Below, in pieces: positions 44,770-55,242 of a stretch of DNA of 64,000 nucleotides; position 1 is the first letter of the stretch; every line of letters begins with the position of its first letter. The stretch is taken from NCBI RefSeq assembly GCF_000158095.2, contig NZ_CM011002.1, positions 5,236,257 to 5,300,256 of the forward strand, given 5' to 3'. The notes beneath the pieces were generated by a model. It did no database searches. It saw nothing but the letters and a program-made list of their open reading frames with translations, and was not told where the DNA came from. Position numbers and translations under genes: made by a program. Source of the DNA: Roseibium alexandrii DFL-11 (lineage in GTDB: Bacteria > Pseudomonadota > Alphaproteobacteria > Rhizobiales > Stappiaceae).

Positions 44770-47700
44770 TTAGGCCTTGCCCCAGCCGCCAGCTGTTGGG
44801 GTGATGACCGTGACGGCTTCACCCGGCTCCAGAATGGTCTGATCGCAGCCCTTGAGCGGCTGTACCGTTCCGTCCAGACGGCGGACCTCGGTGCGGCCAA
44901 GTTCGCCGTTCTCGCCGCCTTCCATGCCTTTCGGCTCGATGGTGCGGTGGGAGCCAAGGATGGCGCAGTCCATCTTTTCCAGAAAACGCAACGTACGTTT
45001 GGTGCCGTCACCCGCCGACCATTTGCCCTTGCCGCCGGAGCCTTTCCGGATGTGGAAATCCTCCAGAAGCACAGGGAAGCGGAACTCCAGGACTTCCGGA
45101 TCGGTCAGGCGCGAGTTGGTCATGTGCACATGAACACCGTCCGTACCCTTGAAGCCGGGGCCTGCCGGGGAGCCTGAGCAGATGGTTTCATAGTACTGGT
45201 AGGTGTCGTTGCCGAAGGTCAGGTTGTTCATCGACCCTTGGCTGTTTGCCATCGCGCCAAGTGCTGCAAAGACTGCATTGGTGACGTGCTGGGACGTCTC
45301 CACATTGCCCGCAACAACGGCTGCCGGATAAGACGGGCGCAACATGCAATCGTCCGGGATGATGATGTTGATCGGCTTCAGGCAGCCGGCGTTCATCGGG
45401 ATATCGCCGTCAACCATCACGCGGAAGCAATAGAGGATTGCAGCCCGGGTGACCGGTTCTGGCGCATTGAAGTTGTTCGGCTTAACGGCGGAGGTGCCGG
45501 TGAAATCGACCGTTGCCTCGCGCTTGTCTTTATCGACCGTGATCTTGACCTTGATGGTTGAGCCTTGGTCTGTCGGGTATTCGTACTCTGAGTCTTTCAG
45601 GGCTTCGATGACCCGCCGCACGCTCTCTTCGGCGTTGTCCTGAACATGGCCCATATAGGCCTGAACGACGTCCAGACCGAAGTGGGACACCATCTTGCGC
45701 AATTCCTGAATGCCCTTTTCATTGGCCGCGACCTGTGCGGAGAGGTCGGCAACGTTCTGATGCGGGTTTCTGGCCGGATAGGCGTGATCCGTCAGCAGGT
45801 TGACGAGTTCGGCCTCGCAGAAACGGCCCTGATCGACGAGCTTGAAGTTGTCGAAGAGGACACCTTCCTCGTCCACCTTGGTGGCAAGCGGGGTCATGGA
45901 ACCCGGCGCGGAGCCGCCGACATCTGCGTGGTGACCGCGGGACGCGGCCCAGAACAGGATCTCCTTGCCTGCATTGTCGAAAACCGGCGAGACGACCGTG
46001 ATGTCCGGCAGGTGTGTGCCGCCATTATACGGAGCGTTCAGCGCAAACACATCGCCCGGCTTGATCTTGCCCATGTTCAGCTTGATCACGGTTTCAACGG
46101 ACCGGTCCATGGACCCAAGGTGCACCGGCATGTGCGGCGCGTTGGCGACCAGGGCGCCGCTGGCATCAAAGACGGCGCAGGAGAAGTCAAGGCGTTCCTT
46201 GATGTTCACCGAATAGGCTGTGTTCTGCAGCGTGACACCCATCTGTTCGGCGATGGACATGAAGAGGTTGTTGAACACCTCCAGCATGACCGGATCGGCG
46301 TGGGTGCCGATGGCGTCGGCCCGCTTGAGCGGCACAACCCGGTGAAGGATGACATGATCCTTGGCGTTGATCTCGGCCTGCCAGCCATCTTCGACGGCAA
46401 TGGTCGCATGCGGTTCAATGATCACCGCCGGACCCATGACTTTCATACCGGGCTTGAGGGTCTCACGCTTGAAGATACCGGCATCATGCCACTGGCCTTC
46501 GGAGTAAATCCGTGTGCCTTTTGCTGCGGCTGGAACATCGGACGCCAAGGTAAGGTCCGGCTCGACAAGACCTGCGCCGCCGCCGGCGGTTTCCACCTCA
46601 AGGGCTTCGACCACCACCGGCTTGTTGTCATAGGCAAAGCCGAATTGCTTCTTGTGCGCATCCTCAAAGGCTGCGCGCATTTCATCAACTGTGCCGAGAA
46701 GAACAGGCAGGGGGGTGTCGGTGCCGTCATAGCGCAAATGTGCAGTCGCGACCGTCCGGCGGGCGTCTTCTGTCACACCCTGTCTGTCGAGTTCGGCTTC
46801 GGTCTGGGCGCTGAGGTCCTTGCGCAGCGCATCCAGCTCGGGAAGCAGCTCCTCGGTCATGGTTTTGACGACCGCTTTTTGACGGTCAGCGCGAATGTCG
46901 GCAAGGCCCATGCCGTAGGCGGACAAGATGCCGGAGAACGGATGCAGGATGACCGTCTTCATGCCGAGGCTGTCGGCGACCTTGCAGCCGGTCTGGCCGC
47001 CCGCGCCGCCAAAGCAGGTCAGGGCGTATTCGGTGACATCATAGCCGCGCTGAACGGAAATCTTCTTGATGGCATTTGCCATGTTTTCGACAGCGATTTT
47101 CAGGAAGCCGTCAGCGACTTCCTCCGGTGCCCGGCCGTCACCGATCTGGCTTGCCAGTGTGGCAAACCTCTCACGCACCACATCGCCATCCAGCGGCTGA
47201 TCCTGGTTCGGGCCGAAGATTTTCGGAAAGAATTCCGGCGCCAGTTTGCCGGTCATCAGGTTCGCATCGGTGACGGTCAAAGGACCGCCGCGGCGGTAAC
47301 AAGCGGGGCCCGGGTTGGCGCCCGCACTGTCCGGACCGACCTTGAACCGGCCGTCCGCATAATGGAGGATCGAGCCGCCGCCAGCTGCGACCGTGTGGAT
47401 CATCATCATCGGCGCGCGCATGCGCACACCGGCAACTTCCGTTTCAAAGGCGCGCTCATAGTCGCCATCATAGTGGCAGACATCCGTTGAGGTGCCGCCC
47501 ATGTCGAAGCCGATGATCTTGTCATAACCGGCCATTGCCGAGGTTTCGACAGCACCGACAACACCGCCCGCCGGACCGGAGAGGATCGCGTCCTTGCCCT
47601 GAAACAGGTCCGCAGCAGTCAGACCGCCGGAGGACTGCATGAACATCAGGCGCGGGCCTTCGCCCAGCTCTTCCTGAACTTGGTTCACATAACGGCGCAG

Positions 47701-48354
47701 GATCGGAGACAGGTAGGCATCAACGATGGTGGTGTCGCCGCGACCGACCAGTTTCATCAGCGGCGAGACTTCATGAGAGACCGAAATCTGCGGGAAGCCG
47801 ATCTCTTGGGCGATTTTCTTCAGAGCTTGCTCGTGGGCCGGGTAGGCGTAAGCGTGCATCAGGACGATTGCGATGGAACGGATCCCAGCGTCCCAAGCGG
47901 CCTGCATTTCGCTACGGGCCCGTGCTTCATCAAGAGCCTGTTCGAGAGTGCCGTCAGCCTGCACGCGTTCCGAAATCTCATAGACGCGCTCATAAAGCAG
48001 TTCCGGCTTGATGATTTCCTTGGCGAAGATGTGCGGGCGGGCCTGATAGCCGATCTCCAGCGCGTCCCGGAAACCGCGCGTGATGAAGAGGGCGGTGCGC
48101 TCACCCTTGCGCTCCAGCAGCGCGTTGGTGGCAACGGTTGTGCCCATCTTGACCGTCGCGACCTTGTCCGACGGGATTGGTTGACCCTTTTCAACGCCGA
48201 GAAGTTCGCGAATGCCTTGAATGGCGGCATCACGGTAGGCTTCCGGGTTTTCTGACAAGACCTTGTGTGGATGGAGGGTTCCGTCCGGTGCGCGGCCAAC
48301 GATGTCCGTAAATGTGCCGCCGCGATCGATCCAAAAGTCCCACTTGGCTGTCAT
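44770..48354 (-). CDS. Fused hydantoinase A/B, 5-oxoprolinase-like
   Basis: A 1194-residue fused enzyme. An N-terminal HyuA half (about 1-690) has an ATP-using actin/hexokinase-like fold ([15 protein letters not shown] near residue 8 and [10 protein letters not shown] near residue 270), and a C-terminal HyuB half (about 700-1194) opens [20 protein letters not shown]. Fused forms of about 1200-1280 residues catalyse ATP-dependent ring opening of 5-oxoproline to glutamate; some act on hydantoins. I start at the ATG at 48354, which has GAGGGA just upstream. A 22-base palindrome lies 82 bases upstream of this start. Confidence 0.9.
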
Positions 48355-48435
48355 TTTATCCCTCATCTTTATGTTTTCCTGCCGGCGATAGACCTGCCGG
48401 GCAGACGCGTTATCCGCCATCGATGGATTTATGCT

Positions 48436-48457
48436 GACATTTTATCGATAAAATGTC
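48436..48457. promoter_or_regulatory. Perfect 22-base palindrome upstream of the oxoprolinase gene
   Basis: GACATTTTATC followed directly by its exact reverse complement GATAAAATGTC. It lies between the oxoprolinase (minus) and the GT87 gene (plus). A 21-base core (48441-48461) recurs with one change at 50084-50104 upstream of the TRAP operon. It has the form of an operator for a dimeric regulator. Confidence 0.8.
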
Positions 48458-48548
48458 GATGAAAAAATCGAATTTTCTTTTACCCGGAGTTTAAGGCTTG
48501 TTTTGTATGCGTCTTTTTGAGGGAGCCAAAGCGCGGGATGATGTGCAC

Positions 48549-49787
48549 ATGAAGAGTACTGGTGGTTCAAACCCGCTCACCGAGTCGGGAACGTTCCGCT
48601 ATGGATTGCGCATGAGTAATCCAGTGGCGGACAGTGTTCTCATGTTCACTCTGACTTTTGTTGGGGCTGTGCTGGTTCTGAGGTTTGGGTTTGAAATATT
48701 AAAGATGGTCTTCGCGGAACGTCCCATGTTTCCGGACTTCGTGAGTTTCTGGTCTGCGGGTTTTTTTGCGGTCCAGGGAGCCGCAGTTGAGGCCTACAAT
48801 TATCAGCTTCTAAATTCATTTCAGTTTGAAGAGTTCGGTCAAGGAGAACTCCCATTTCTCTATCCGCCGACCTGGTTGATGGTGATTTCGCCATTTTCCA
48901 TGTTGCCTTATCGGCCCTCTGCGCTTTTGTTTGAGGCGCTTCAAGTCATCGCGTTGGCAGTGGCTTGCAGGTATTTGCTGCGTGACCGGGCAATTCTCTG
49001 GATCCTGATTTTCTTTCCGACAGTGATCTCCGGGATCATTCACGGGCAAAACGCCGTGCTCAATACTGCGCTATTGGCCGGAGCACTTGGAGCGCTGGAT
49101 CGTGATCGGCCGGTTCTTGCCGGCATTCTGATTGGATTGCTGAGCTACAAGCCTCAATTGGGAATCTTGATCCCGTTTGCACTTTTGGCCGGTCGTGAAT
49201 ACCGAGCATTTGCATCAGCCGCCGTGACGACCTTGTTATTTGCCACTGCTAGCTGGGTTGTCTTTGGGGCGGAGGTCTGGCGCGCGTTTATTGAGACCAT
49301 TGCGTTTGCTCGCGACTGGCTGGAAAGCGGCCAAACGCCGGCAAACAAATATGCCTCCATTCTAGGTTGGTTACGCCAATTCGGGGTTGGAAACACGGCT
49401 GGAATGATTGTACAAGTTGGCTTCGCTTTGGCATCGGTTGGAGCTGTTGTGTGGTCATGGCGCCAGGATCTGCCGATGACCCTCAAGGGCAGTTTACTGG
49501 TTATCGGGACATGCCTCTCTACGCCTTACTTGCTGGACTATGATCTGGCTCTTTTGGTTATTCCTGTGTTGCTGCTTATCCAGCAGGGGAATGAGAGCGG
49601 GTATCTGAGTTTTGAGAAATTAAGCATTGCGCTCGCCGTGTTTAGCTTCCTTTTTACAAGCCTCTGGGGCGTCCAAATGCCTATTACGGCGATTGGGGTG
49701 CCATCGATTGTTTTGTTTGCTCTCGTTCTGCGCCGCGCTGTCGTGGGGCAGCGGGCAGGTTTTGGCCAGACCAGCTGTCCCGCATGA
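48549..49787 (+). CDS. GT87 (DUF2029) family membrane glycosyltransferase
   Basis: A 412-residue polytopic membrane protein with about ten hydrophobic segments. FPDFVSFWSAGFFAVQG near residue 60 is the family's acidic first loop (D-F/W-x-x-x-W/Y-x-A), followed by LPFLYPPTWLMVISPFS and later GQNAVLNTALLAG. Members use polyprenyl-phosphate sugars, often mannose, and transfer them on the periplasmic side. The start is uncertain: ATG codons at 48507, 48549 and 48612 are all in frame, and none has a strong ribosome-binding site. It is divergent from the oxoprolinase gene; no functional link is shown. Confidence 0.82.
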   Translation: MKSTGGSNPLTESGTFRYGLRMSNPVADSVLMFTLTFVGAVLVLRFGFEILKMVFAERPMFPDFVSFWSAGFFAVQGAAVEAYNYQLLNSFQFEEFGQGELPFLYPPTWLMVISPFSMLPYRPSALLFEALQVIALAVACRYLLRDRAILWILIFFPTVISGIIHGQNAVLNTALLAGALGALDRDRPVLAGILIGLLSYKPQLGILIPFALLAGREYRAFASAAVTTLLFATASWVVFGAEVWRAFIETIAFARDWLESGQTPANKYASILGWLRQFGVGNTAGMIVQVGFALASVGAVVWSWRQDLPMTLKGSLLVIGTCLSTPYLLDYDLALLVIPVLLLIQQGNESGYLSFEKLSIALAVFSFLFTSLWGVQMPITAIGVPSIVLFALVLRRAVVGQRAGFGQTSCPA

Positions 49788-50222
49788 GACATCATCGTTT
49801 GCCAAGTTCGCCCACCATTCTAAAACCGATCTTCAGGTCTACGACCGATCTACCGGGCTAGATAAACCTTAGCAGCACCCCTTAGCAGTCCTAAAACGGG
49901 TCTCCGCGGCACCTCGGATATCATTGCAGAGGTGAGGCGAAGACATACATATACGCGGTATGGTAGAGAAGGCCTAATTTACCTTTCAATAATTGTATTA
50001 AAACATCCAATTCTGTGTCGGAGAATTCGAGTTACTCCCCGGGAGGCTTTGTTTTTCCGTGCTTCTGAGATTTTTGAAAAGAATTTATCGATAAAATGTT
50101 GATGTTTTATCTTTTCCGGATTAGCGTTTAGTTGGCAGCCGTGGATGGGCGTTCGCAGAAAACGCCGTCATGCTGCCCTGCTCAGGTTCAAGAAACCCCT
50201 TTGCTTCTAAGAGGAGAACATC
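49788..50222. promoter_or_regulatory. Intergenic region before the TRAP operon
   Basis: 435 bases without a gene. It contains a 9-base direct repeat CCTTAGCAG twice within about 21 bases near 49868, and the operator-like site at 50084-50111. The TRAP ribosome-binding site AGAGGAGA is at 50209-50216. No terminator for the GT87 gene is clear. Confidence 0.55.
50084..50111. promoter_or_regulatory. Operator-like site upstream of the TRAP operon
   Basis: TTTATCGATAAAATGTTGAT is in 50084-50103, matching the oxoprolinase site with one change, and the inverted repeat GATAAAA (50090-50096) / TTTTATC (50105-50111) overlaps it. It lies 112-139 bases upstream of the DctP start. A common regulator is likely. 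Confidence 0.75.
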
Positions 50223-51221
50223 ATGTTGAAGTCACGATCCCTGGCAAAGGCCGGGATGACGTTTGCCGCTGCTGCCGCCTTTGGCGTTGCAGGCCTTACT
50301 GCCGCTGCTGCCGAAACCAAGTGGGACATGCCGACCCCATATGGTGATAGCAATTTCCACACCCAGAACATTGCAGCGTTCGCCGATGAAGTTGCAGACA
50401 AGACTGGCGGCTCACTGACAATTCAACTTCATTCAGCTGGATCGCTTTTCAAGCATCCAGAAATCAAGAACGCGGTCCGTAAGGGCCTGGCACCGATCGG
50501 TGAGGTTCTGGTGTCGCGTCTTTCAAACGAAGATGCTGTCTTCGGCGTGGATTCTGTTCCGTTCCTCGCCCCGTCTTATGACCAGGCTTGGAAACTGTAT
50601 CAGGCGTCCAAACCGGCGCTTGAAGAAAAACTTGCCGAACAGGGCCTTCAGCTCCTCTACACGGTGCCGTGGCCGCCACAGGGCATTTACGCGAAAAACG
50701 AAGTGACAAAAGGTTCTGACCTGTCCGGACTGAAATTCCGCGCCTACAATGCGGCGACTGAGCGTCTTGCGATTTTGGCAGACGCCATCCCGACGCAGAT
50801 TGAAGTGCCGGATATTCCGACCGCATTCTCGACAGGCCGTGTCGAGGCCATGATCACATCCCCGTCCACCGGTGCCAACTCCAAGGCCTGGGACTTCCTG
50901 ACCCATTATCATGACACGCAGGCCTGGTTGCCGAAGAATATGGTGATCGTCAACAAGTCTGCATTTGACGCGTTGAACGATGCGGAAAAGTCTGCAGTTC
51001 TGGAAGCTGCCGCCACGGCTGAAACCCGCGGTTGGGAAGCCTCAAAAGTTGAGACCAAGTCCAAGACTGCAGTTCTTGCCGAAAACGGCATCACCGTTGT
51101 CCAGCCGAGCAGCGAACTGATTGCAGATCTTGCCGCAATCGGTGAGACAATGGCCACAGAATGGCAAGAACAGGCCGGCGAAGATGGTACTGCCATCCTG
51201 GAAGCCTACAAGGCCAACTAA
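50223..51221 (+). CDS. TRAP transporter substrate-binding protein DctP
   Basis: A 332-residue secreted binding protein with a signal peptide (1-30, ending AAAAET). The DctP fold has the conserved Arg/Asn core: GLKFRAYNAATERLAILADAIP, around residue 170-190, holds the arginine that binds a carboxylate in TRAP proteins. The substrate is not known; 5-oxoproline or a related acid is suggested by the shared operator with the oxoprolinase. It is first in the operon, followed by a hairpin. Confidence 0.92.
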   Translation: MLKSRSLAKAGMTFAAAAAFGVAGLTAAAAETKWDMPTPYGDSNFHTQNIAAFADEVADKTGGSLTIQLHSAGSLFKHPEIKNAVRKGLAPIGEVLVSRLSNEDAVFGVDSVPFLAPSYDQAWKLYQASKPALEEKLAEQGLQLLYTVPWPPQGIYAKNEVTKGSDLSGLKFRAYNAATERLAILADAIPTQIEVPDIPTAFSTGRVEAMITSPSTGANSKAWDFLTHYHDTQAWLPKNMVIVNKSAFDALNDAEKSAVLEAAATAETRGWEASKVETKSKTAVLAENGITVVQPSSELIADLAAIGETMATEWQEQAGEDGTAILEAYKAN

Positions 51222-51231
51222 GACTGGAAAG

Positions 51232-51259
51232 CGCCGGGCCTGAACTGCCCGGCGTTTTT
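51232..51259 (+). terminator. Terminator/attenuator between dctP and dctQ
   Basis: CGCCGGGC/GCCCGGCG (8-base perfect stem, 7-base loop), followed by TTTTT. It probably terminates most transcripts after dctP, which gives more binding protein than permease. Confidence 0.88.
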
Positions 51260-51290
51260 CTTTCTGCCGCTAAATATTGGGGGAGAGCGG

Positions 51291-51848
51291 ATGCGAAATG
51301 CGCTCAATGGATTGTACAAGACGGCAACGGTTTTGGCTGCCTGCTGTCTTGTGACAATTGCTCTACTTGTATCTCTTCAGGTCATGGGGCGGCTGCTGGA
51401 CGGTGCACGCGGCCTGGTCGGCCTGGAACCACTGGGATTGTTGGTTCCGTCGCTCGCTGAAATCGCCGGTTTCTTTCTCGTCGGCGCATCCTTTCTGGCG
51501 CTGGCCGGAACACTGCGCAACGGGGACCATATCCGGGTTTCCATTCTTTTGCAGGGTGTGGGCCCGGCCGTTGCCCGGCTCCTGAATATCTGGGCCCTAG
51601 CCGTTGCGTTCGCTCTCGCTGCGTATTTTACCTGGCACGCTTTGGCACTGGTACTGGACAGCTACCGCTACAACGAAGTGTCTTTCGGCATCATTCCGAT
51701 CCCGCTCATGTTTCCGCAGGCAGTCATGACACTCGGGCTCTTCGTCCTTGCGATTGCGCTGCTGGATGATCTCGTCACATCCTTGACCGGAAAAGCGCCA
51801 AGTTATGAAACCGTCGTTCGCGACGACCCGATTGAAGGGAGCGAGTAA
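51291..51848 (+). CDS. TRAP transporter small permease DctQ
   Basis: A 185-residue small membrane subunit with four segments (about 12-35, 55-75, 95-115, 140-160). SLAEIAGFFLVGASFLALAGTLRNGDHIRVS is the conserved region in the middle (checked in its parts). It pairs with DctM. GGGGGAGAG precedes the ATG, and its stop overlaps the DctM start (TAATG). Confidence 0.9.
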   Translation: MRNALNGLYKTATVLAACCLVTIALLVSLQVMGRLLDGARGLVGLEPLGLLVPSLAEIAGFFLVGASFLALAGTLRNGDHIRVSILLQGVGPAVARLLNIWALAVAFALAAYFTWHALALVLDSYRYNEVSFGIIPIPLMFPQAVMTLGLFVLAIALLDDLVTSLTGKAPSYETVVRDDPIEGSE

Positions 51849-53152
51849 TGGATTTTTCTCTTCTATCCTTCTTGCTTGGCTTGGGCATGCTGGCCGCGCT
51901 TGCCACGGGCATATGGGTGGCGGTTGCGCTGTTCGCCGTCGCTCTTGCTACGATGATGCTGCTGGTCTCTGTTCCAGCCGGGCCGGTCATGGCGACCACA
52001 GTCTGGGGCGCGTCTCACCACTGGGACCTCACGGCCTTGCCGATGTTTATCTGGATGGGAGAAATCCTGTTTAGGTCGCGGTTGTCGGAAGACATGTTTG
52101 CCGGATTGTCGCCCTGGATGCGGAACCTGCCTGGCCGCCTTTTGCACGTGAACATCCTGGGCTGCGGGATATTTGCGGCTGTGTCAGGCTCTTCCGCCGC
52201 AACGGCCGCAACGGTTGGCCGAATGTCTTTGCCGGAGCTGAGAAGCCGTGGCTATGACGAGAAACTGGCGATCGGCACTTTGGCCGGGTCCGCAACCCTT
52301 GGCTTGCTTATCCCGCCGTCGATCATTTTGATCGTTTACGGCGCAGCTACCGAGCAGTCGATTGCGCGGCTCTTCATGGCAGGTGTCTTGCCTGGCGCGA
52401 TGTTGTGTCTTTTGTTCATGGGCTATGTCGCAGTTTGGGCGATGCTGAACCGTGACAAGATGCCGGCCAAGGAAGAAAAGCTTCCGCTCTGGACGCAGAT
52501 CAAAGCGACGCGGCGCCTCTTCCCGGTTATTGGTCTGATTATTGGCGTCATCGGCTCGATCTATGCTGGTCTTGCCTCGCCAACGGAAGCTGCTGCAATC
52601 GGCGTCGTGCTGGCGCTTTTGTTGTCCTGGGTGTCCGGGACCTTGAACCGCAAGAGTTTTGCGGACGGTCTCCTGGGCGCGACACGCACATCCTGCATGA
52701 TTGCGTTCATTCTTGCGGGTGCGGCCTTCCTGACCGTCGCGATGGGGTACACAGGCATCCCTCGGGAGCTGGCCTCCTGGATCGGCGGAATGGACATGTC
52801 ACCGTACGTGCTCTTATTCGCGCTGACGATCTTCTTCGTTGTCCTCGGCTGTTTCCTGGACGGGATTTCCGTTGTGGTTCTAACCACATCCGTGATCCTG
52901 CCCATGGTGGAGCAGGCTGGCCTTGATCTGATCTGGTTTGGGATTTTCATCGTTCTTGTCGTTGAAATGAGTCAGATCACACCTCCAGTCGGCTTCAACC
53001 TGTTTGTTATTCAGGGAATGACGGGGCGCAACATCTTCTCCGTTGCACGTATGGCTTTGCCGTTCTTCCTGTTGATGGTTGTGGCGCTGGTTCTGCTTGT
53101 CGCCTTCCCGGGGTTGGCCCTGTGGTTGCCTCAGACGATGTTGAGCAATTAA
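51848..53152 (+). CDS. TRAP transporter large permease DctM
   Basis: A 434-residue membrane protein with about 12 segments. Typical DctM blocks are present: SGSSAATAATVGRMSLPELRSRGYDEKLAIGTLAGSATLGLLIPPS (seen in parts) and ITPPVGFNLFVIQGMTGRN near the end. It is the Na+-coupled transport subunit. It is followed 34 bases later by the MarR-type gene. Confidence 0.93.
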   Translation: MDFSLLSFLLGLGMLAALATGIWVAVALFAVALATMMLLVSVPAGPVMATTVWGASHHWDLTALPMFIWMGEILFRSRLSEDMFAGLSPWMRNLPGRLLHVNILGCGIFAAVSGSSAATAATVGRMSLPELRSRGYDEKLAIGTLAGSATLGLLIPPSIILIVYGAATEQSIARLFMAGVLPGAMLCLLFMGYVAVWAMLNRDKMPAKEEKLPLWTQIKATRRLFPVIGLIIGVIGSIYAGLASPTEAAAIGVVLALLLSWVSGTLNRKSFADGLLGATRTSCMIAFILAGAAFLTVAMGYTGIPRELASWIGGMDMSPYVLLFALTIFFVVLGCFLDGISVVVLTTSVILPMVEQAGLDLIWFGIFIVLVVEMSQITPPVGFNLFVIQGMTGRNIFSVARMALPFFLLMVVALVLLVAFPGLALWLPQTMLSN

Positions 53153-53186: not shown

Positions 53187-53723
53187 ATGACTGAGCGACC
53201 GAAACCCAACTCCGATGCCCAAATTGGTCCTGTGGTTTCGGCCGCTCATCTTGCGTCCGGTGCCATGCCGGCCCTCTCGGAAATCGAGTTTGCCGTCACG
53301 ATGATGGTCAACGCATATCATCGCTGGATGGTCCGTTGTATGGCTGCCAGTGGCTCGGAGGGGCTCGGCCCTCTTGATGTCTTGGTTCTCCACTCGGTCA
53401 ATCACCGCGGGCGCGCTAAGACACTGTCCGATATTTGTCTGGTCCTGAACATCGAAGACACGCATACGGTGACCTACGCGCTCAAAAAACTTGAGAAAGC
53501 CGGACTGATTACCTCTGGTCGGCGCGGCAAGGAAAAAACCGCTGAGATCACCCCCGAGGGTGAGACCGCATGCATGGAATATCGACGCTTGCGGGAGGCG
53601 CTCCTGGTCGAGCCCATGAAAGCGCTTGGGCTCGATGAGAGCGAACTCTCCCGGCTTGCCGCAACCCTTCGCCTCGTTTCCGGAAACTACGACCAAGCCG
53701 CCCGCGCTGCAGCTGCCATGTAA
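53187..53723 (+). CDS. MarR-type winged-helix regulator
   Basis: A 178-residue protein with a winged-helix domain. GPLDVLVLHSVNHRGRAKTLSDICLVLNIEDTHTVTYALKKLEKAGLITSGRRGKEK, in parts, is the MarR-like HTH with wing (residues about 60-120). It matches the COG5631-type regulators. It is the last gene of the TRAP operon. As a dimer it is a good candidate to bind the TTTTATCGATAAAA-type sites at 48436 and 50084; this is an inference. Start at the ATG at 53187, with GAGAGA upstream. Confidence 0.88.
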   Translation: MTERPKPNSDAQIGPVVSAAHLASGAMPALSEIEFAVTMMVNAYHRWMVRCMAASGSEGLGPLDVLVLHSVNHRGRAKTLSDICLVLNIEDTHTVTYALKKLEKAGLITSGRRGKEKTAEITPEGETACMEYRRLREALLVEPMKALGLDESELSRLAATLRLVSGNYDQAARAAAAM

Positions 53724-53791: not shown

Positions 53792-54127
53792 ATGAGATCA
53801 GATGATGCAATTATGGCTCTTGGCGCTCTCGCCCAGGAAGACCGGCTGGCGGCTTTCAGGCTGTTGATGATGGAGGGAGACCAAGGTCTTCCGTCCGGCG
53901 CAATCGCAGAGCGCCTCGACGTAGCGCCCACCAGGATGTCCTTCCATCTGGCAACTCTGGAAAAAGCCGGGCTTTTGAACACGCGCCGGGAAGGGCGGCA
54001 CATCCATTACTCCGTCGACTATCTGAGGATGCGATCCTTGCTTGGATTTCTCATCGAAGACTGTTGCGGCAACAATCCCGATATCTGCTGCTTTCCCATC
54101 AGCGCCCCCAATCAGGAAACACACTAA
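53792..54127 (+). CDS. arsR: ArsR-family arsenite-responsive repressor
   Basis: A 111-residue winged-helix repressor. The recognition helix region VAPTRMSFHLATLEKAGLL is near residues 44-62. The C-terminus carries Cys91, Cys92, Cys99 and Cys100 (DCCGNNPDICC), matching the As(III) site of the Acidithiobacillus type of ArsR, which uses C-terminal cysteines, rather than the E. coli alpha-3 CVC type. It is the first gene of the ars operon, 1 base before arsC. Confidence 0.9.
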   Translation: MRSDDAIMALGALAQEDRLAAFRLLMMEGDQGLPSGAIAERLDVAPTRMSFHLATLEKAGLLNTRREGRHIHYSVDYLRMRSLLGFLIEDCCGNNPDICCFPISAPNQETH

Positions 54128-54128
54128 A

Positions 54129-54542
54129 ATGACCATCACAATTTACCACAATCCGAAATGTGGGACGTCCCGGAACACGCTGGAGATGATCCGCAAGGCT
54201 GGCGTTGACCCAGTCGTGATCGAGTATTTGAAAACGCCGCCATCCCGCGACGAGCTGGTGAATTTGATCGCAAGAATGGAGATTTCAGTCCGCGATTTGC
54301 TCCGCCAGAAGGGGACACCTTTTGATGAACTGGGGCTTGGCGATGAGAAATGGACCGATGACCAGTTGATCGACTTCATGATGGAGCACCCGATCTTGAT
54401 CAACCGACCTGTCGTCGTGAGCGACAAGGGTGTCCGGCTCTGCAGGCCCTCAGAAAGGGTCGTTGATTTGCTTCCGGTCGATATCGGCGCATTCACAAAG
54501 GAAGATGGGGAAGTGGTCAACGCCGGGAGCACAAATGTTTGA
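54129..54542 (+). CDS. arsC: Arsenate reductase (glutaredoxin type)
   Basis: A 137-residue enzyme of the R773 ArsC type. The catalytic cysteine is in [12 protein letters not shown], near residue 11. Arg residues that bind arsenate are in [16 protein letters not shown] and RLCRPSERV. It reduces arsenate to arsenite with glutaredoxin and glutathione. It follows arsR by 1 base. It overlaps arsH by 8 bases. No arsenite permease gene (arsB, acr3) or aqpS is adjacent. Confidence 0.93.
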
Positions 54543-55242
54543 CGGAAAACCTGAGGACCTCCCGAATGTGAGCTTTGCGGACATCAAGCCCGTAACCGCT
54601 GGAAAAGTGGATCAGGCGGCAGCATTCGATCACCCGCCGCGCATACTGCTTCTCTATGGATCTTTACGGGAGCGGTCCTATAGCCGATTGCTGGTTGAAG
54701 AAGCTGCCCGCCTGTTGACGGCTTTCGGGGCGGAAACCCGGATCTTCAACCCTTCAGGATTGCCGTTGCCAGATGATGCCGATGCAAGTCATCCCAAAGT
54801 GGCTGAACTGCGGGATCTGAGCATTTGGTCGGAGGCTCAGGTGTGGTGTTCGCCCGAACGCCACGGCGCTATGACAGGCATCTTGAAAACTCAAATCGAC
54901 TGGATCCCGTTGAGCACCGGGGCCGTCCGTCCAACACAAGGCAAAACACTAGCTTTGATGCAAGTCTCGGGTGGGTCCCAGTCTTTCAATGCTGTTAACC
55001 AGATGCGGATCCTTGGCCGCTGGATGCGGATGGTCACGATACCGAACCAATCCTCGGTTCCGAAGGCGTATACCCAGTTTGATGATGACGGACGCATGCT
55101 GCCATCACCACTCTACGACCGTATTGTGGACGTCATGGAAGAGCTGATGAAGTTCACACTGTTGGTGCGCGGGCGGTCTGACTATTTGGTGGATCGATAT
55201 TCTGAACGTAAGTCTGATCGGCAGAAACAGGGAGCAGCCTAG
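54535..55242 (+). CDS. arsH: ArsH organoarsenical oxidase / NADPH:FMN oxidoreductase
   Basis: A 235-residue flavodoxin-fold protein. [25 protein letters not shown] holds the FMN phosphate loop (GSLRxxS), and [21 protein letters not shown] is the ArsH-type catalytic loop. ArsH oxidises trivalent organoarsenicals such as MAs(III) to the pentavalent form and reduces quinones. The start at 54535 overlaps arsC by 8 bases, with GGGAG upstream. It is the last gene of the ars operon. Confidence 0.93.

Follow-up and report, generated by a model that had tools for sequence, protein, structure and literature searches.

Introduction

In Corynebacterium glutamicum, the PxpR-pxpTABC system places the uptake of 5-oxoproline (pyroglutamate, cyclized glutamate) and a 5-oxoprolinase under a local repressor with 5-oxoproline as its signal, and the 2026 paper on it states that, to its authors' knowledge, the regulation of bacterial 5-oxoproline metabolism had not been studied before (PMC13274462). 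On the transport side, DctP6 and DctP7 of Bordetella pertussis (2pfz, 2pfy) are described as pyroglutamate-binding TRAP receptors (PMC13274462, PMC12344293, PMC5812351), and their genes lie near a gene for a eukaryotic-type 5-oxoprolinase (PMC13274462). The passages of these papers that deal with the two receptors describe no regulator or operator for them (PMC13274462, PMC12344293, PMC5812351).

We examined a stretch of 64,000 nucleotides from the marine bacterium Roseibium alexandrii DFL-11 (hereafter the window), in which a gene for a HyuA-HyuB-type oxoprolinase neighbours a TRAP transporter operon that ends in a gene for a MarR-type regulator. MarR-family proteins act on palindromic operators and govern small local regulons, and a local catabolic regulon under such a protein is an ordinary kind of system. 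We consider it likely, from sequence comparison, that two palindromes at this locus are the operators of a small 5-oxoproline regulon that is repressed at both of its units by the linked MarR protein.

PxpR is the nearest functional parallel: uptake and opening of 5-oxoproline are under local control, with a palindromic site by the promoter (PMC13274462). The parts differ, however, since the C. glutamicum system consists of a GntR-type regulator, a secondary carrier of the APC superfamily and PxpABC, whereas the window holds a MarR-type regulator, a TRAP transporter and a HyuA-HyuB-type enzyme; likewise, 5-oxoproline sensing has been shown for PxpR and is a proposal for the window MarR (PMC13274462). 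The window cluster does not belong to the PxpR type of regulon (a GntR-type regulator with PxpABC), and pxpABC is absent from it. A search of an open-access library turned up no account of this MarR regulon or of its pairing of regulator and substrate.

Results

Gene content of the cluster

The oxoprolinase gene is read leftwards, and dctP, dctQ, dctM and marR are read rightwards (Table 1). The likely oxoprolinase start is an ATG (complement of 48352-48354) behind GAGGG, the longest open reading frame beginning at 48420, and Pfam domains of HyuA and HyuB are united in the single chain. The enzyme stayed under the cut-off of every NCBIfam equivalog that it matched, and it did not reach those of the caprolactamase (CapAB) models NF050156 and NF050157 (352.4 and 165.2 bits; cut-offs 1000). 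Its closest solved relatives are 7hk5, an N-methylhydantoinase, and 6yra_A.

Table 1. Coordinates of the genes, predicted operators and putative promoters in the window.
Feature	Position	Strand	Remarks
HyuA-HyuB fusion, 5-oxoprolinase-like, 1194 aa from likely start	44770..48354	-	PF05378, PF01968, PF19278, PF02538
Tentative oxoprolinase promoter	48431..48459	-	-35 TCGACA (48459-48454), weak -10-like CAGCAT (48436-48431); operator core in spacer
Operator 1 (predicted), 28 bp	48433..48460	.	5' of oxoprolinase gene; encloses palindrome 48436-48457; matrix score 40.3
GT87-type gene	48498-49787		PF09594; between the two units
Operator 2 (predicted), 28 bp	50076..50103	.	5' of dctP; core TTTATCGATAAA 50084-50095; matrix score 35.4
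Likely dctP promoter	50099..50127	+	-35 TTGATG 50099-50104, 17-base spacer, -10 TAGCGT 50122-50127
dctP, TRAP solute receptor, pyroglutamate-binding type	50223..51221	+	PF03480
dctQ, small TRAP permease subunit	51291..51848	+	PF04290
dctM, large TRAP permease subunit	51848..53152	+	PF06808; TIGR00786 above cut-off
marR, MarR-type winged-helix regulator, predicted binder of both operators	53187..53723	+	PF13463, PF12802 above cut-off

The regulator matched PF13463 with 71.4 bits and PF12802 with 29.8 bits, and PF01047 remained under its cut-off. Its predicted model (mean pLDDT 88.9) runs from a long helix through a winged helix to two long C-terminal helices, which is the MarR order; the winged-helix topology and the long first and last helices are shared with E. 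coli MarR (5h3r), HpaR (22oz) and CouR (5cyv). Of the 50 listed fold matches, none exceeded 25% identity, and all that had a family name were MarR-type; comparison of the sequence with the PDB gave no match at E <= 0.01. At E <= 1e-10 there are 2369 homologues; where the 120 of them that were listed carry a name, it is a general one such as 'winged helix DNA-binding protein', 'predicted MarR family transcription regulator' or 'transcriptional regulator'. In the recognition-helix region, E90, D91, T92, V95, Y97 and K101 were invariant in 32 aligned members.

Two further features were noted beside these genes. Between dctP and dctQ (51230-51262), an inverted repeat that is rich in G+C and runs into T (AGCGCCGGGC...GCCCGGCGTTTTTC) was seen by eye and not listed by the general scan; it is perhaps a partial terminator that yields more receptor than permease. 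Positions 53792-55242, 3' of marR, hold an ArsR-type regulator (PF12840) and two frames that by eye resemble arsenate reductase and ArsH, and these three form a separate unit.

Two near-identical palindromes are rare in the genome

The sequence-only reading had placed a perfect 22-base palindrome 82 bases from the oxoprolinase start, and this was borne out: GACATTTTATCGATAAAATGTC occupies 48436-48457, 5' of the gene, with position 48436 lying 82 bases from the likely start. A near copy at 50083-50104, 1.6 kb away and 5' of dctPQM-marR, stops about 119 bases short of the dctP start (ATG 50223). The same reading had described the recurrence as a 21-base core with one change. This held insofar as 50084-50104 and 48441-48461 differ at a single base, but 'core' is slightly loose for a stretch that runs 4 bases past the palindrome; the second site departs from the palindrome's central 20-mer at 2 positions. 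It had also argued from the GT87 gene between the two sites. The gene is present, but the argument carries little weight, as GT87-like matches (39-91% identity) occurred in only 7 of 80 relatives' loci, and this gene would therefore be a variable neighbour.

At up to 3 mismatches, the central 20-mer was found at these two places only in the 5.46-Mb genome (3 contigs). Within the window, WTTTATCGATAAAW had 3 matches at up to 2 mismatches, 2 of them exact (shuffle mean 0.25), and a matrix built from relatives' sites (described below) gave the next best place after the two operators a score of -5.8. A looser 16-base pattern, again at up to 2 mismatches, matched 15 places in the genome versus 2 for its reversed control.

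A global regulator with many sites was also considered and rejected, because the 13 non-operator places (12 stretches with a partial core) all scored 11.4 or less. The top score of 11.4 belongs to a weaker operator-like place (L149:1565), 5' of a short open frame beside an MsrA-like frame, which may be a third, minor site or a chance match. Elsewhere in the same genome, two ATTATCGATAAT palindromes (G000:C1:5220691-5220706 and 5220827-5220842; L154) stand 136 bp apart, and they are probably the site of another regulator, since the top matrix score in that stretch was only 0.1.

We then compared 41 Roseibium genomes, all of which (41/41) carry marR, and 40 of which carry the pattern within 2 mismatches, among the matches listed. 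The one genome without a pattern match (L156) scored 17.4 5' of its oxoprolinase gene. A core spread over many unrelated loci, which the sequence-only reading had named as telling against it, was not what we found: among the matches listed, all 65 distinct sites at one mismatch or fewer fell in this cluster, 63 of them within 7.6 kb of marR and 2 on a short contig with the oxoprolinase gene and dctP. At 2 mismatches, 17 sites among the matches listed lay elsewhere than the cluster.

The operator is conserved as three phased hexamers

Relatives were collected as 80 named loci via the MarR protein, the nearest of them from Labrenzia/Roseibium. The oxoprolinase was found in 70 and pxpA in 4; the 6 with neither comprise four loci truncated by their contigs (L004, L021, L076, L080), one with an oxoprolinase end at the locus edge (L038) and one with none (L040). 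Searching these relatives for the palindrome core, as the earlier reading had proposed, showed both sites to be conserved, one 5' of the HyuA-HyuB fusion and another, separately, 5' of dctP in the TRAP operon. In the Stappiaceae range (L003-L065), 53 of 63 loci keep the 12-bp core with no more than one mismatch (all but L021, L036, L046-L049, L058, L061, L062 and L064), so the sites are not lost from relatives with the same genes. Where dctPQM was missing from the fetched locus (L009, L019, L022, L033, L035), the site stayed with the oxoprolinase gene and marR, and in L023, where the two units are about 0.3 kb apart, two sites lie in between.

The matrix was trained on 85 sites from L003-L065 (73 distinct; one, L016 17940, off-cluster), with the consensus CATCGACAATTTATCGATAAATTGTCGATG. 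The conserved operator is built of three RTYRAY hexamers at 11-bp intervals, arranged around TTTATCGATAAA, and spans about 28 bp. Of 90 Stappiaceae sites, 57 had a hexamer at precisely -11 bp, 81 at 0 and 48 at +11 bp. Further out the count was at most 2/90, and a fourth in-register hexamer, which we considered and rejected, was present at -22 and at +22 bp in 1/90 each. By eye, a few distant sites (L086, L091) seem longer.

In Pseudovibrio (L046-L049), two hexamers in the gap between the oxoprolinase gene and marR read ATCTAC / GTAGAY in place of ATCGAY. We sought a matching change in the recognition helix of the Pseudovibrio MarR proteins and found none, which counts against the MarR regulon reading. 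In the draft genome of Pseudovibrio denitrificans (L046:6162-9738), the oxoprolinase splits into several tblastn pieces, where decay and sequencing error cannot be told apart.

Operator placement fits repression

In the likely dctP promoter, the -35 box falls on the right hexamer of operator 2, and in 29 of 33 relatives' dctP regions a -35-like hexamer begins 9 bases right of the operator centre, with TANNNT 16-18 bases further on. The oxoprolinase promoter is weak, its strict pattern occurring in 25 of 53 relatives, and a general promoter scan of the window listed neither promoter. Because operator 2 overlaps the dctP -35 box, we read the control as repression; the placement of the operators at both promoters would fit blocking of the polymerase, and marR, as the last gene of the dctP operon, would thus be under negative feedback.

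In the same regulon, the same regulator could also act as an activator, at either promoter or at both. The operator centre is placed some 9 bases 5' of the dctP -35 box, and activators, too, bind just upstream of such boxes. Yet the oxoprolinase operator would sit between the -35 and -10 elements if the weak promoter reading (25/53) is right, and the MarR proteins studied so far are mostly repressors. We therefore regard activation as unlikely and retain repression.

The operator accompanies marR outside the training set

Gene starts could be assigned in 38 of the 40 class-sampled marR loci fetched (all but L120 and L121), and we scored the regions upstream of them. The highest score per locus was at least 5 in 29/38 and at least 10 in 23/38, and among distant named marR loci the same thresholds were reached in 14/17 and 13/17. 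Loci that hold the same oxoprolinase but come from genomes lacking a marR match reached 5 in 0/20 (range -39 to -9), as did dinucleotide shuffles (0/380, 0/170 and 0/200). With oxoprolinase upstreams alone, the split was 19/32 with marR versus 0/20 without (Fisher p = 4.5e-6, a guide only, as the rows are related). The controls, whose oxoprolinases are 61-66% identical, were 20 of 163 marR-less genomes from about 12 genera, chosen from the best oxoprolinase matches and not a random draw.

In three of the control genera, genomes with marR occur as well, and within each of these genera the loci with marR scored higher: 14.3 versus -24.7 and -32.5 without marR in genus g91, 5.9 and 0.2 versus -26.2 in g178, and -2.7 versus -26.5 and -9.0 in g46. 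The misses count against the MarR regulon reading: nine of the 38 fell below 5 (L094 0.2, L095 1.8, L096 -1.4, L104 -2.7, L113 4.0, L114 -2.6, L118 4.4, L119 -34.7 and L122 -33.4), and so did three of the 17 distant loci (L067, L068, L077). A single control locus, L131, has dctPQM adjoining the oxoprolinase gene, and it has neither marR nor operator.

With the sites conserved, and absent in 20/20 marR-less controls, the proposal of the sequence-only reading that a TRAP importer and a ring-opening enzyme form one regulon under the linked MarR protein gains support. That the palindromes arose by chance, or as a functionless local duplicate, is suggested by their spacing of just 1.6 kb, but their conservation at both genes over many families, and their absence from shuffles and controls, make this explanation negligible.

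marR is linked to two unrelated kinds of oxoprolinase

Across 385 class-sampled genomes (cut-offs E <= 1e-20 for marR and E <= 1e-100 for the oxoprolinase), marR was found in 40 and the oxoprolinase in 201. The 40 fetched marR loci include 31 with the oxoprolinase, 17 with dctM and 4 with pxpA, pxpB and pxpC together (L112, L113, L116, L117); 5/40 have neither oxoprolinase type nearby (L114, L119-L122), which counts against the MarR regulon reading. In four of the named loci (L070, L071, L075 and L082; Rhodobacterales), the neighbours of the regulator are dctPQM, pxpB-pxpC-pxpA and a membrane protein that matches no Pfam family. The identity of pxpABC was checked on L070, where PF03746 (with NF003814 above cut-off), PF02626 and PF02682 were found and the NCBIfam PxpB and PxpC models stayed under their cut-offs; in the other seven of these eight loci (L071, L075, L082, L112, L113, L116, L117), it was assigned by homology. 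PxpABC is expected to perform the same reaction as the window oxoprolinase and has the same marR family alongside in all eight, yet its families are unrelated to PF05378/PF01968/PF02538 of the window enzyme. In L116 and L117, pxpA is divergent from marR-pxpB-pxpC, and the gap holds a site scoring about 26.

On a marR tree of 70 of the 120 loci L003-L122 (oxoprolinase-labelled near-copies and short rows removed), the pxpABC label needs 5 changes, at least 4 of them forced by well-supported branches; several deep forks are open, and the count may be slightly high, as L076 and L080, scored as having neither enzyme, are contigs that end before the place of pxpABC.

Two neighbours of these loci deserve mention. 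The membrane protein of L070 (5847-6782, - strand), between dctM and pxpB, has no Pfam or NCBIfam match, has homologues in L071, L075 and L082, and is transporter-like by eye. A FAD oxidase resembling D-amino-acid dehydrogenase lies beside marR in 14 of the 80 named loci, for example L045:8539-9798 (- strand; PF01266 and the best NCBIfam match, below cut-off), with homologues in L042-L044, L050-L052, L054, L057, L071, L075, L076, L080 and L082. In L045, L050-L052, L054 and L057 it has its own operator core just upstream, and it may perhaps have a role for D-5-oxoproline or D-glutamate.

Could the operator belong to a regulator encoded elsewhere, with marR merely a co-inherited neighbour? Some marR loci lack a clear site, and the Pseudovibrio site changes are not mirrored in the recognition helix. 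Against this, the site is missing from all 20 marR-less loci, including those within the three shared genera, and the strong Roseibium sites are in this cluster only, among the matches listed. It also follows marR in the five loci fetched without dctPQM (L009, L019, L022, L033, L035) and in six where pxpABC replaces the oxoprolinase (L070, L071, L075, L082, L116, L117). Judged from the families' first residues, every other regulator family was confined to a minority, at most, of 33 loci with an operator; antisense frames were included in this count, and marR's own 33/33 holds by construction, as the loci were picked by marR. We consider a different regulator very unlikely and take the linked MarR protein as the candidate binder.

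The receptor points to 5-oxoproline

The best sequence matches of the window DctP were 2pfy (2.9e-92), 2pfz (6.6e-89) and 6wgm (2.7e-72), the next standing at 3e-17. A fold search gave three structures titled pyroglutamate receptors at 45, 47 and 42% identity, and at most 23% for the others among the matches listed. The protein thus falls in the pyroglutamate-binding subfamily, being nearest to DctP6, DctP7 (45-47% identical) and 6wgm, and the DctP proteins of L070 and L044 were also closest to these three.

The sequence-only reading had left the substrate as 5-oxoproline or a hydantoin. We can narrow this to 5-oxoproline as the most likely substrate, because the nearest solved relatives of DctP are three pyroglutamate receptors, and because two unrelated enzymes of one reaction share one regulator. 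A regulon serving hydantoin or another cyclic amide would agree with the enzyme family, which includes N-methylhydantoinases and caprolactamase and in which the closest solved relative is an N-methylhydantoinase. Given the grouping of DctP, and the presence of the 5-oxoprolinase pxpABC next to this regulator in four positions of the marR tree, we judge such a substrate highly improbable.

Discussion

Our comparisons support three points: the operator is conserved, it is linked to marR, and the receptor belongs to the pyroglutamate type. We infer that both operators are bound by the MarR-family protein, presumably a dimer, and that this protein represses, rather than activates, the oxoprolinase gene and the dctPQM-marR operon, and hence itself. 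5-Oxoproline or its product would release the repressor, upon which the TRAP system would import 5-oxoproline and the oxoprolinase would open it to glutamate, spending ATP.

More broadly, we lean towards the view that this MarR clade is a widespread 5-oxoproline sensor of Alphaproteobacteria, reading three helically phased RTYRAY hexamers 11 bp apart, which may have kept its pathway while the HyuA-HyuB fusion and PxpABC were exchanged several times.

The locus points to a second control system for 5-oxoproline, unrelated to PxpR and with a defined operator. If this is true, it would give a function to proteins now named just 'winged helix DNA-binding protein' or 'predicted MarR family transcription regulator' and a substrate to the TRAP transporters of these clusters, and it would be a clear case of a regulator keeping its pathway through enzyme replacement.
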